Assembly: GCA_944324245.1 (NCBI GenBank)
Contig: CALUVO010000008.1
Location: 1-33,097, forward strand
DNA length: 33,097 nt
Direction of reading: 5' to 3'
Origin: Candidatus Gastranaerophilales bacterium
GTDB taxonomy: Bacteria; Cyanobacteriota; Vampirovibrionia; Gastranaerophilales; Gastranaerophilaceae
Below are positions 28,527-33,097 of the stretch, piece after piece. The notes under the pieces are model-generated. The model saw only the letters and a program-made list of their open reading frames with translations. It was not told the origin of the DNA and made no database searches. Position 1 is the stretch's first letter. Each line of letters starts with the position of its first letter. Position numbers and translations under genes: made by a program.

Positions 28527-31166
28527 GTGATAACAACCGGACAAGTTGACATAAAAAATCAATACGGTTTAAAGCGAAAAGAGTTCCGTCATCGAAATTA
28601 TGCGGCAATGGGGTCGCTAAATGCGGGCAAACAAAACAATGCAATACAAAATAATAGTATACAAAAACCCTTGCAAGGAGGCGCAAACGCGCAAATATCT
28701 TTCAAGGGTTTTGCTTTTGACAGTATAAAAAAAACTTTTATGCCGACTGTAAAATTTGTTCCGGCTAATTTAAAGAATAAAGTATTTGATTCTCTTAAAC
28801 ATATTAGTGAACAACAATATAATACATATCTGCAAATAAAAGATGAGTTTATAAATTATGTAATTAATCCTAACAATGCTGATTTTAGGCGTAAAAATGG
28901 TATTACGGATGACATTTTAAATGTTTTGCAAAAAGGAAATCATGAGACTTTAATTTATTTGCCTAAAAAGACTGTCGCTACAAAATTTATAACACAGCTG
29001 GTATCTCCATTAAGCGCATTGTACAACTGGACTGAAAAGTTGATTTTGCCTAAAAATTCGAAAATTTTGCTAAAAAGAAATGAAAAAAAACGCATTATGA
29101 AAAACTATGCGGCTTTAGAAGGACTTTTTAAATCACATGAAATTTGGGAAAACGGCTACAGAAAAATGAGCGGGCATCCTAAATTTAATAAAAACAGCAC
29201 TTTTATAATTCCTGATGATGTTTTGTATAGCAAAATTAATAGAAGACGGAACAAAGTGGTTGATCCGAATAAAGGAAAGTATTCTTCCAATTCTCTTATG
29301 ATAGGAAACAGACTAATCTCAGGTGTTGTGTATTCGTATTTTTTGGGTACTGACGCATATAATACTACAATGAGATATTCAAACGATAAACACGAAGCTG
29401 CAAATCAAAGAAAATCCCGTATTGCTCAAGAGTTTTCCCGAATAGGTATGAATATGTATATTCAAAATCTCTTGTTTGGCACATTCGAAACTGCTGTAAA
29501 CAGAAGTTTGTCTACTGCAATGTTTGTGTCCGGTTCAACTGTTGCTTTTTCTGAAATTTTAGGAAGAAAGCTTGTCGGCAAACCCATAATGCCTTCTAAT
29601 AAGGAAAAATTGGACAAATTAGAAGAAGAAATGTATTCAAAAAAGGGACTTAGTGCTTCAATAGGCAGGCTGTTAACGTCAGTAAAGAAAAAAGATCCAG
29701 TACAATCAAACCACGCAAATATTTCTAATGTGTATTATAATAAAACATCTGCAAATGAAAAATTATTTTCTTCTTTTGCTACTAAAAATACTTCCAGACA
29801 GGAAGGTCTGCAAAATACGCCATCTTTTAAAGGTACTGTTGATATAAATAAATATTTCAAAGTGGAAAAACTCATAGAAAAAGACAAGGTTGAGTATCTC
29901 TTACAAATACTTGAAAAAGCTGACTCTAAAACAGCTCAAAATATAAAAAATGCAATAATGAAATCTGTAAGAAAATCTGATTATCTCAAACAAAAAGATG
30001 TAGCTATTCCTCAAAATATAGAAGAATTAATAGCGTTAAACGATATAAACAAAATACCACTTGGAAAGAAAGATACTTTCTGGGGAAAACTTACAACAAG
30101 CATACTTGTTCCTGTAAGATTCATTTCAAATGTGTGCAGAGGAATAGTTATTATACCCAGAAAAATATACTATATTGCAACTAACAAAAAGGATACAAGA
30201 CTTGCTGATGAGTTAAATAAATTGAAACAGAGTATAGATTTAACTGATGTTTATAACATCAATAATGAACTAAATAAGCTAAAATTCAACTTAAATAACG
30301 AAAAATCTAAGTTAACTCCAGCTATTTATGAAATAAAACAGAAAAATATAATCAGATTGGAAAAGTTTATAGATTTTTATAAACAAAGACTTGCGACAGA
30401 AGCCTGGTCAAAATCTCCATATACTGCTGACGAAAAATCGCTGAAGATATTTGCTGAGTTTAAAGGTATAAAAAACAAGACAAATGAGGATATACAAGGT
30501 GTAAAAAATATTCTCCTCTGGTTTGATAAACAGCTTCAAAGAGAAGGAATAGAGTTAGATAAAAACGGTAATTTAGCTGAAGAAGATATAAAAAAAGCAA
30601 GAAAAATACTAATGGACTCGGTAATGAGAGCAGACGGAGAAAAACAGCTTGAATATGATGGTAATACACTGGCTCAGACAAATATAAACCTTTCAAGGGC
30701 GATAACTACGTTGTTCTTAATTACAGATGCCTATAACCTTACTATGCAATACAGCAATGATAATCGTAAAGATGCTGCAAAGAGTGCAAAAAACAGAGCG
30801 GCACAGGAAATTTCAAGAATCAGCGTATCGGCTTATATAATGGCTTTTGTTCATAACCTGTTATCAAAACTCTGCAATTCAAGTCTTGCCGGTGCATTTA
30901 CGCTTACAGCTTTGACTTCATCTATCAATGACTCTATTTCAAGAGAAGTTGTCGGTGTTCCGTTGACTGCAAAAACTCAGGAAGAGCTAGAAGAGATTGA
31001 TAAGAAAAATCAAAAGTCTAAAAATCCTATCAAAAAAGCGCTGGCGTATTCTATAGGTAAAAAGTCAGCACTGCCTTCATCTCAATTACAGTCAAAAACA
31101 AATGCCGTTAGCGTAAAAACTGATTATATAGGCAATGACTTTTTTATAAATCCTGAAATTAATTAA
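28527..31166 (+). CDS. Duplicated hypothetical protein with SFKG motifs
   Basis: An 879-residue product I cannot assign to a known function. The start is GTG, with AAAGG about 12 bases upstream; ATG at 28608 is a possible alternative. The protein is an internal duplication. Unit one has ISFKGF (about 57) and then TDAYNTTMRYSND (about 275), RIAQEFSRIGMN, LGRKLVGKP and LEEE. Unit two has PSFKGT (about 432) and then TDAYNLTMQYSND (about 733), RAAQEISRISVS, ISREVVGVP and LEEI. Before each TDAYN block is a variable, Lys-rich helical part. The hydrophobic helices after each block (for example AMFVSGSTVAFSEILG, AGAFTLTALTSSIN) could lie in or on a membrane. No signal peptide is visible. An N-terminal ISFKG-like motif followed by such helices seems typical of Gastranaerophilales proteins, from memory and without a search. 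It precedes rsmH by 40 bases. Confidence 0.8.
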   Translation: MITTGQVDIKNQYGLKRKEFRHRNYAAMGSLNAGKQNNAIQNNSIQKPLQGGANAQISFKGFAFDSIKKTFMPTVKFVPANLKNKVFDSLKHISEQQYNTYLQIKDEFINYVINPNNADFRRKNGITDDILNVLQKGNHETLIYLPKKTVATKFITQLVSPLSALYNWTEKLILPKNSKILLKRNEKKRIMKNYAALEGLFKSHEIWENGYRKMSGHPKFNKNSTFIIPDDVLYSKINRRRNKVVDPNKGKYSSNSLMIGNRLISGVVYSYFLGTDAYNTTMRYSNDKHEAANQRKSRIAQEFSRIGMNMYIQNLLFGTFETAVNRSLSTAMFVSGSTVAFSEILGRKLVGKPIMPSNKEKLDKLEEEMYSKKGLSASIGRLLTSVKKKDPVQSNHANISNVYYNKTSANEKLFSSFATKNTSRQEGLQNTPSFKGTVDINKYFKVEKLIEKDKVEYLLQILEKADSKTAQNIKNAIMKSVRKSDYLKQKDVAIPQNIEELIALNDINKIPLGKKDTFWGKLTTSILVPVRFISNVCRGIVIIPRKIYYIATNKKDTRLADELNKLKQSIDLTDVYNINNELNKLKFNLNNEKSKLTPAIYEIKQKNIIRLEKFIDFYKQRLATEAWSKSPYTADEKSLKIFAEFKGIKNKTNEDIQGVKNILLWFDKQLQREGIELDKNGNLAEEDIKKARKILMDSVMRADGEKQLEYDGNTLAQTNINLSRAITTLFLITDAYNLTMQYSNDNRKDAAKSAKNRAAQEISRISVSAYIMAFVHNLLSKLCNSSLAGAFTLTALTSSINDSISREVVGVPLTAKTQEELEEIDKKNQKSKNPIKKALAYSIGKKSALPSSQLQSKTNAVSVKTDYIGNDFFINPEIN

Positions 31167-31206: not shown

Positions 31207-32169
31207 ATGCAACACAGATATAAAACTCCAGAATTTGAACATTATACAGTTATGGCTTGCGAAGCAGTTGATATGCTTGATTGTAAGCCGGGAAAAATAT
31301 ATGTGGATGCAACCCTGGGAGGCGGCGGACACAGTGAACTTATATTGCAAAAGATTCAGCCGGATGGGCGTCTAATAGCTTTTGATATAGACGATGATGC
31401 GATAAAAGCTTCTAAAGAAAGGCTAAAAGGTTACAATAATTTAACAATAGTTAAGGAATCTTACTGTAATATTAAGAAAGTTTTACAAGATTTAGGAATA
31501 AATGAAATAACAGGGGGAATTGTTTTTGACCTGGGTGCATCATATCATCAGCTTACAAAACAAGAACGCGGATTTAGTTTTATGAAAGATGCGCCTTTAG
31601 ATATGCGTTTTGACAAGGATTCGGATTTTAGCGCTTACGATGTCGTAAACGGGTATTCTGAAGAGGATTTGATTCGAATAATCAGTGAATACGGTGAGGA
31701 AAGATTTACCAAAAGAATTGTAAAAAATATTGTAAATTATCGTAAACTTAAAAATATAGAAACCACGGGCGAATTGGCCGAAATAATAAAAAATTCGGTA
31801 CCAAAAACAAAAGAAAAAATTCACCCCGCAACCCGCACGTTCCAAGCGATTAGGATAGAAGTGAATCAAGAATTACAAAATATTAAAAATACTTTAAATG
31901 ATGTGCTTACTTTATTATCTGTTGGTGCTATAATTAGTATAATAAGTTTTCACTCTTTAGAGGATAGACTTGTTAAACAGTGTTTCAAGTATTATGCGTC
32001 AAAATGCCGCTGCAAACCGAATGAGCCGGTTTGTCACTGCAAACCTCCAATGCTTGAATTGATTAACAAAAAGCCTATAACGGCATCAGAATTAGAAATT
32101 AAGGAGAACCCTCCATCAAGATCGGCAAAGTTGAGGGTAGCTAAAAAAATTTCGTCATGGGAGAAATAA
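31207..32169 (+). CDS. rsmH: 16S rRNA (cytosine-1402-N4)-methyltransferase
   Basis: RsmH (MraW, 320 residues) uses S-adenosylmethionine to methylate N4 of C1402 in the 16S rRNA decoding site. Visible motifs are FEHYTVM (10-16, matching HxPVM), the SAM-binding VDATLGGGGHS (33-43), FDIDDDA, and the closing IISFHSLEDRLVKQCFK. Between them lies the inserted helical domain, with HPATRTFQAIRIEVNQEL. A C-terminal Cys/His-containing stretch (CRCKPNEPVCHCKPP) is a common feature of this family. No Shine-Dalgarno sequence precedes the ATG. It is followed immediately by an FtsL-like gene, the usual start of the division and cell-wall cluster. Confidence 0.96.
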   Translation: MQHRYKTPEFEHYTVMACEAVDMLDCKPGKIYVDATLGGGGHSELILQKIQPDGRLIAFDIDDDAIKASKERLKGYNNLTIVKESYCNIKKVLQDLGINEITGGIVFDLGASYHQLTKQERGFSFMKDAPLDMRFDKDSDFSAYDVVNGYSEEDLIRIISEYGEERFTKRIVKNIVNYRKLKNIETTGELAEIIKNSVPKTKEKIHPATRTFQAIRIEVNQELQNIKNTLNDVLTLLSVGAIISIISFHSLEDRLVKQCFKYYASKCRCKPNEPVCHCKPPMLELINKKPITASELEIKENPPSRSAKLRVAKKISSWEK

Positions 32170-32170
32170 A

Positions 32171-32650
32171 TTGACAAGACCTGTAATCGATACAAAGAAC
32201 AGTCAAAGACATTTATATAATCAATATAATTATGACAATTCTAAAAATCCGATAAGCCCCGTTATAGACGGTTATTTTCCGACTCATAAAACTTATAAAG
32301 AAATGGCTATAGCCAGAGTTAATAAAACTCTTTGCGCAATACTTGTATTTTTTATTTTGCTCTCAGCTGTAAGTTATTATTTTGTTACAGCAAGCGAAAT
32401 TACTCTGAATAAGTATAGAAAGCAGGTTTTGTCTTTAAATGATGAAAATGTAGAGTTGCAAAATAAACTTGATTATCTTAAGTCATATTATAATGTTGAT
32501 AAGGCTATGAAAAAACAGCATTTACTGCAAAAAGCTAAAAATGTCATTGAAGTAAAAGATTCACCGGCAACGGATCCTGTTAAAAATATAGCTGCAGTAA
32601 AAGTTTCACAGTCATCTCAAAAACCTTTTCAATGGTCAATTGGCTTTTAA
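32171..32650 (+). CDS. ftsL: FtsL-like cell division protein
   Basis: Starts with TTG one base after the rsmH stop; GGGAG at the end of rsmH gives a good ribosome binding site, so translation is coupled. The product (159 residues) has a polar cytoplasmic head of about 50 residues, one membrane helix (about 54-73, LCAILVFFILLSAVSYYFV) and then a heptad-like segment (about 76-115, LSLNDENVELQNKLDYL) as in FtsL/DivIC proteins. The protein is recognised by position after rsmH and by topology, since FtsL sequences are poorly conserved. FtsL bridges FtsB and FtsQ in the divisome. The usual next gene, ftsI, is not present; structured non-coding DNA follows instead. Confidence 0.8.
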   Translation: MTRPVIDTKNSQRHLYNQYNYDNSKNPISPVIDGYFPTHKTYKEMAIARVNKTLCAILVFFILLSAVSYYFVTASEITLNKYRKQVLSLNDENVELQNKLDYLKSYYNVDKAMKKQHLLQKAKNVIEVKDSPATDPVKNIAAVKVSQSSQKPFQWSIGF

Positions 32651-32659
32651 ATTCAAGGT

Positions 32660-32832
32660 TTCTTATGATGTCTGAGGCGGCCTCGCTTGTAGGAGTGTAC
32701 ACGGAGTGCAAATGACGCCACCAGGTAGGGGCATAACATCAGGCTTCGCTCTAGCTCAGCCGATGTTGCAGCCAGTCTAGCATTTTACGGAAGTGATCCC
32801 ATGCACTTGTTGGCTGTGCCGGACTTATTTTT
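32660..32832 (+). ncRNA. Candidate structured RNA, first element
   Basis: This stretch is clearly richer in G+C than its neighbours, has no credible gene, and is dense in stems. AACATC + GGCT (32735-32745, one bulged A) pairs with AGCC + GATGTT (from about 32758); GCAGCCA (32768-32774) pairs with TGGCTG (about 32811-32816); AAGTG (about 32791) pairs with CACTT (about 32805). GAGG..CCTC (32673-32683) forms a small hairpin. A possible closing helix, GTCTG (32670-32674) with CGGAC (32820-32824), ends just before a T-tract (32827-32832) that could stop transcription. No match to tmRNA, RNase P, SRP RNA or tRNA signatures was found by eye. The family is unknown to me. Confidence 0.5.
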
Positions 32833-32837
32833 TAACA

Positions 32838-32975
32838 ACGAACTTGTTTATTGCACAGGTTCAACAAGCGGATTTTCGGACGGGTGAAACCCGGAGAGCG
32901 AGGACATTGAGCCGGCTTGTGCAAAGCACAAAAGGCGAAACTGTCTGAGCGTGAAGAAAATCCAAGAAGGAGTCG
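32838..32975 (+). ncRNA. Candidate structured RNA or leader, second element
   Basis: A branched fold can be drawn directly. The outer stem is GGATTTTC (32870-32877) with GAAAATCC (32956-32963). Inside it, CGGGT (32881-32885) pairs with ACCCG (32889-32893) on a GAA loop. A second arm has GGACA (about 32902) with TGTCT (about 32942), then GCC with GGC, then TTGTGC with GCACAA on an AAA loop. Upstream, CTTGTT (about 32842) pairs with AACAAG (about 32863). Unpaired parts are purine-rich (GGAGAGCGAGG, GGCGAAAC, GTGAAGAAAA), as in real RNAs transcribed from the plus strand. It ends 27 bases before the next start codon, so it may be a 5' leader or the 3' part of one long RNA. Confidence 0.5.
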
Positions 32976-32990
32976 GAGTCAGTTGACGAT

Positions 32991-33097
32991 ATGAAATATA
33001 AAAAATATAATGAGGAAATAAATAAACTTAGTAATGAAATTTCCCAAAAAGGCGATATCTGGGAGTTGTATTACCAGAGAGGTTATTTGTATTTTTT
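32991..33097 (+). CDS. TPR-like protein, N-terminal fragment
   Basis: Begins with ATG at 32991 and runs open to the window edge (35 complete codons). The visible part is a charged helix (MKYKKYNEEINKLS) followed by DIWELYYQRGYLYF, which fits the first helix of a tetratricopeptide repeat (W-x-LYY-x-RG-x-xY). GGAG at 32975-32978 is about 12 bases upstream, and AAGGAG (32967-32972) is farther away, so the ribosome binding site is not ideal. TPR proteins are scaffolds for protein interactions; the partner is not visible. Confidence 0.65.
   Translation, partial: MKYKKYNEEINKLSNEISQKGDIWELYYQRGYLYF

Follow-up and report, generated by a model that had tools for sequence, protein, structure and literature searches.

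The sequence downstream of ftsL

The window, i.e., the whole stretch of 33,097 nucleotides analysed here, belongs to a genome (G000) of a Candidatus Gastranaerophilales bacterium. Close to its right end, a GC-rich patch separates an ftsL-like gene from a small ORF that we call TPR-like on a reading by eye. The coordinates of these features are collected in Table 1. Further upstream, the window contains an ORF of 879 aa (28527-31166), the halves of which look alike by eye, both containing a DAYN(T/L)TM(R/Q)YSND-like stretch.

Table 1. Features of the GC-rich patch and its neighbours (window positions)
Feature	Position	Strand	Observation
ftsL-like upstream neighbour	32171-32650	+	named by the sequence-only reading; position after the rsmH-like ORF (31207-32169) fits
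Whole mobile element copy, 329 bp	32669-32997	+	joined-flank comparison: site empty in G001, empty less cleanly in G010, occupied in G014
Left end TGTCTGAGGCGGCCTCGCTTGTA	32669-32691	+	common to nearly all copies
Left arm GGAGTG-TACAC-GGAGTGC-AAATGACGCC	32692-32719	+	replaced by ACTCTGCCG...AGAGGTAG in other copies
Optional hairpin module i2, 54 bp	32720-32773	+	present/absent between orthologs L010 (G000) and L100 (G014)
Core: linker, 5′ arms of P1-P3, 3′ arms of P3 and P2	32774-32868	+	compensatory changes
P1 5′ arm	32794-32800	+	
P2 5′ arm	32805-32812	+	
P3 5′ arm	32814-32819	+	
P3 3′ arm	32853-32858	+	
P2 3′ arm	32862-32868	+	
Optional hairpin module i4, 101 bp (CGGATTTTC...GAAAATCCAAGAAG)	32869-32969	+	without counterpart in the G014 ortholog
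Right end GAGTCGGAGTCAGTTGACGATATGAAAT with GTCA-GT-TGAC palindrome and tail ATATGAAAT	32970-32997	+	exact-motif counts
P1 3′ arm	32975-32981	+	
Beginning of the TPR-like ORF downstream (MKYKKYNEEINKLSNEISQKGDIWELYYQRGYLYF...)	32991-33097, ORF runs past the window	+	ATG inside the element

A first, sequence-only reading had described this patch as GC-rich, gene-free, and full of stems, and had proposed a probable structured RNA, or two adjacent ones. The patch essentially lies where it had been placed: its boundaries as determined by comparison with other genomes enclose 329 bp with a G+C content of 0.50, against 0.366 in the rest of the window. Only 19 windows of 329 bp reach this G+C content, the highest value elsewhere being 0.489. 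That reading had been unable to match known RNA signatures by eye, and an Rfam search of the patch likewise returned no family at the gathering threshold and a permissive search only one chance-level match (E 1.2). A phage collection likewise yielded a single chance match, and seven chance matches in viral contigs lie in coding-like sequence that lacks the element.

The description of the patch as gene-free holds for most of it, but its last seven bases contain the ATG of the next ORF. Its richness in stems is real but uneven. Compared with shuffled sequences, the fold of the whole patch does not stand out on the + strand (z –0.64), with a slightly more negative value for the – strand (z –1.77). 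Individual modules fold well: z is –4.4 for the 101-nt module at 32869-32969 and about –5 for modules of the ACTCTGCCG type in other copies. The value for module i2 is –1.8.

The corresponding site of the sister species G001 is empty and reads ...TTTTTTATGAATAATAAATATGATAAAG, the beginning of the small TPR-like gene, the empty allele of which starts ATGAATAATAAATATG. In the window, the insertion is located directly after ATGA, and the terminal ATGAAAT of the element provides an in-frame start (MKYKKYNEEI...). The element has thereby substituted its own start codon for that of the downstream gene. It had also been noted that the usual next gene of the division cluster is missing. Since the same small TPR-like gene follows ftsL at the empty site of G001, no division gene was removed by the element.

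The supply of a start codon is not a general property of these repeats. An ORF of at least 60 aa is opened in the ATGAAAT frame by 20 of 227 copies, the remaining two frames yielding 0 and 13, and we therefore rejected the idea of a general translation-start supplier in favor of an occasional effect. Positions 32983-33011 of the window, which straddle the right end and the flank, show a TTGACG-17-TATAAT arrangement (11 of 12). A hybrid promoter formed from the TTGAC of the right end was also rejected, because 255 copies show no enrichment of a –10 element at a distance of 16-18 bp.

A dispersed repeat with constant ends and optional modules

When G000 was searched for the patch, 87 pieces matched; scattered over many contigs, they lie on both strands and in 37 extracted copies that contain the core. 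A left end (TGTCTGAG...CTCGCTTGTA) and a right end (GTCGGAGTCAGTTGACNATATGAAAT) are common to the copies, and the simplest form of the element measures about 176 bp. The exact right-end motif GTCAGTTGACNATATGAA occurs 59 times in G000, 73 times in G001, and 139 times in G010, while the reversed motif used as a control has no match in any of the three; all genomes are drafts, G000 being 85% complete. Of 23 genomes belonging to the genus, its own included, 19 contain the element by BLAST, compared to none of 36 others. G010, G001, G012, and G134 are rich in copies, and G005, G011, G013, and G018 are apparently free of them. When 155 genomes from the family were searched with a covariance model of the core, 10 were positive; they represent three genera, one of which includes G134 with at least 25 copies. 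The matches listed for a species-wide contig collection are from Gastranaerophilales, except for “uncultured bacterium” records and one bin titled “Clostridia” (CAMEWS contigs; L213, L231, L279, and L280), which carries the element and is probably a mislabelled Gastranaerophilales genome. We found no description of such repeats in these bacteria in the open-access literature.

For 20 copies, we looked for the joined flanks in the genomes of sister species, where several of the orthologous sites proved to be empty. Alignment with these sites identifies T-GTCTGAG...ATATGAAA-T as the unit that was inserted, with zero duplication and zero loss of target sequence. The cleanest cases are L047, L028, L031, and the window site relative to G001, the remaining comparisons being blurred by divergence. 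The target logo, AAWW|WTT, is AT-rich and represents only a tendency. Copies within one species are often nearly identical, which suggests recent spread. Read in the orientation of the element, 119 of 193 flanks have a positive GC skew, which could reflect the replication strand or the gene strand.

Most complete copies (149 of 175, 85%) are intergenic, and neighboring genes are found in all relative orientations with no fixed one. The other 26 are located within ORFs; an insertion within a gene is seen at L137 of G010. Such copies, together with the exact restoration of reading frames upon removal of the element, are what a self-splicing intron would produce. But the intergenic location of the majority and the excess of antisense over sense copies among those in genes (18 vs. 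8) are at odds with splicing. In addition, the window copy matched neither group I nor group II introns at either Rfam threshold, and 10 of 11 genomes showed no reverse transcriptase (one match in the remaining genome). An intron would therefore be most surprising.

Between the constant ends, hairpin modules are present or absent at fixed positions, and even the common core is missing from some copies. Two pairs of orthologs illustrate this directly: L010 of G000 and L100 of G014 differ by module i2 and are otherwise identical, and L026 and L099 (G000/G014) differ exactly by module i1. The window copy differs from its G014 ortholog in possessing module i4, a case that carries an assembly caveat because it is located near a contig end whose sequence is shared by contigs C8, C66, and C92. 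The ends of these three G000 contigs (L011, L048, and L184) contain the common right end together with the first part of the TPR-like gene, which perhaps results from strain variation or from branching of the assembly at a repeat. The spread of modules from copy to copy might involve short-tract gene conversion or a hairpin-driven insertion of the modules themselves.

The shared contig ends and the many other copies at ends of contigs could raise the suspicion that the repeat was created by assembly of a metagenome-derived genome. This explanation hardly deserves credence, given the copies in the interior of contigs in independent assemblies of other species and the orthologous copy at the window site in G014. 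Taken together, the patch is one copy of a dispersed, modular, gene-free mobile repeat and not a unique RNA gene. Instead of one or two adjacent RNAs, it consists of a single end-to-end element with optional hairpin modules.

The core hairpin

The half of the element adjoining the right end folds into three helices: P1 (TGACCCC/GGGGTCA), P2 (ACTTGTTG/CAACAAGT, extended by an outer C-G/U-A pair), and P3 (CTGTGC/GCACAG). Among 73 distinct sequences, we counted 63 double-change cells, whereas shuffling gave 16.1 and sliding of the structure no more than 12, and the covariation score is 0.153 vs. 0.074 (shuffled) and at most 0.066 (slid). With another genus included, the key pair of P3 is C-G in 20, G-C in 16, and U-A in 13 cases and is paired in 98%, counted in a two-genus alignment that was fitted to the structure. 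In proposing a structure, the first reading was thus correct: the pairing is conserved, as compensatory changes among the copies of relatives demonstrate. Since these changes extend across species and two genera, the pairing is under selection, either as RNA or as single-stranded DNA. One-sided changes in P2 mostly result in G-U pairs on the + strand, which argues for this strand as the folded one; one position of P1, being C-A in most sequences, does not favor it. When the element is transcribed together with its neighbors, its hairpins would enter the mRNA.

A structure under selection is also what one would expect from a non-coding RNA or cis-regulatory leader specific for the locus after ftsL, and the shared strand would allow its co-transcription with ftsL and the next gene. 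We nevertheless consider this very improbable. Dozens of mobile copies, inserted in either strand, adjoin unrelated genes in every orientation and are sometimes located inside genes; orthologous sites in sister species are empty; and no –10 hexamer is enriched downstream of the TTGAC in the right end.

Relation to known repeats and possible routes of movement

Based on copy number, occurrence on both strands, exact insertion without duplication, constant ends, optional modules, and a compensated core hairpin, we are confident that the repeat, which is found in Gastranaerophilaceae, is a small mobile element with a modular structure, non-autonomous and similar in kind to BOX elements or REPINs. 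BOX elements of Streptococcus pneumoniae are composite interspersed repeats of 67-637 bp with constant end modules and a variable interior, which are folded, located near and inside genes, and likely non-autonomous (PMC3049150). Constant ends and interior modules that are present or absent are common to both, a likeness in kind and not in sequence. In contrast to BOX elements, which have terminal inverted repeats and target-site duplications (PMC3049150), the element has neither intact inverted repeats nor a duplication. It is also GC-rich in an AT-rich genome and carries modules of several types, which occupy different fixed sites; the hosts are unrelated. Bacterial MITEs are short, non-autonomous, base-paired, and dispersed (reviewed in PMC10969869), as is our element, but the lack of intact terminal inverted repeats and of a duplication separates it from them as well.

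REP sequences and REPINs, which are associated with RAYTs (REP-associated Y1 tyrosine transposases), are high-copy, mostly extragenic, and non-autonomous, with palindromic ends (PMC3116915, PMC2817692). All of this applies to our element, too, and zero duplication likewise agrees with a REPIN-like element moved by a RAYT. Moreover, several same-genus genomes possess Y1 genes, that of G012 being flanked by two element copies. But no Y1 transposase was found above the cut-off in G000 or in G010, the genome with most copies, nor was any found in G134 or G107. The RAYTs that we read in G001, G012, and G016 adjoin a different REP-like palindrome, GGTTGGGC...GCCCAAC, and the unit itself consists of 176 bp plus modules and not of two inverted REPs of 20-40 bp, with no GTAG-type head seen. 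Because RAYTs are absent from the richest genomes and possess a palindrome of their own, we rejected them as the driver and regard a RAYT-moved REPIN as unlikely. RAYT-like Y1 genes accompanied by this REP-like palindrome are present in relatives at L190, L191, and L192. In summary, the element resembles BOX elements and REPINs in the way it works but lacks tested defining features of each.

A search for Y2_Tnp gave no match, with the control likewise silent. Among 198 right ends paired with a left end, no autonomous, i.e., gene-carrying, copy was seen. Only four of the paired spans exceed 600 bp; three contain nothing but modules, and the fourth (L274, 3.6 kb) looks like a chance match of the left end. 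Because no driver emerged from the searches for Y1 genes and autonomous copies, we can only infer the enzymatic route. Zero duplication, the lack of intact inverted repeats, and the left-right asymmetry of the folded ends fit best with single-strand (HUH-like) transposition, which we put forward as a tentative possibility. Zero duplication and subterminal hairpins would agree with an IS200/IS605-type mechanism, but the target is only AAWW-like and a HUH transposase was not found. An enzyme supplied in trans would recognize the folded ends and move the element; GTCTGA and TCA-GTT-GAC could pair with each other, and the palindrome GTCA-GT-TGAC lies beside the right end.

A two-tier system, in which an undescribed single-strand recombinase would move the element of about 176 bp while hairpin modules insert and excise at fixed internal sites, seems rather doubtful to us. 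If true, ever larger folded structures would arise, and Gastranaerophilaceae would possess a new enzyme as the driver.

The repeat family is abundant and has apparently been active in recent times. Its host, a gut-dwelling relative of cyanobacteria, is uncultured and does not photosynthesize. It breaks assemblies and rewrites gene starts, the window being an example of the latter. The family offers exact empty sites, orthologous copies that are one module apart, and compensatory hairpin changes that are specific to species. With these at hand, it can be tested in what way BOX and other small modular repeats acquire or lose their modules, and by what enzyme an element devoid of inverted repeats and target duplications is moved.

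As to the ends themselves, the left one is merely a truncated match to the right one. Two loci show the right end inverted on both sides, L292:2006-2199 (193 bp) and L199:971-1018 (47 bp), the only such pairs among the fetched loci; they perhaps represent an ancestral or rearranged form.
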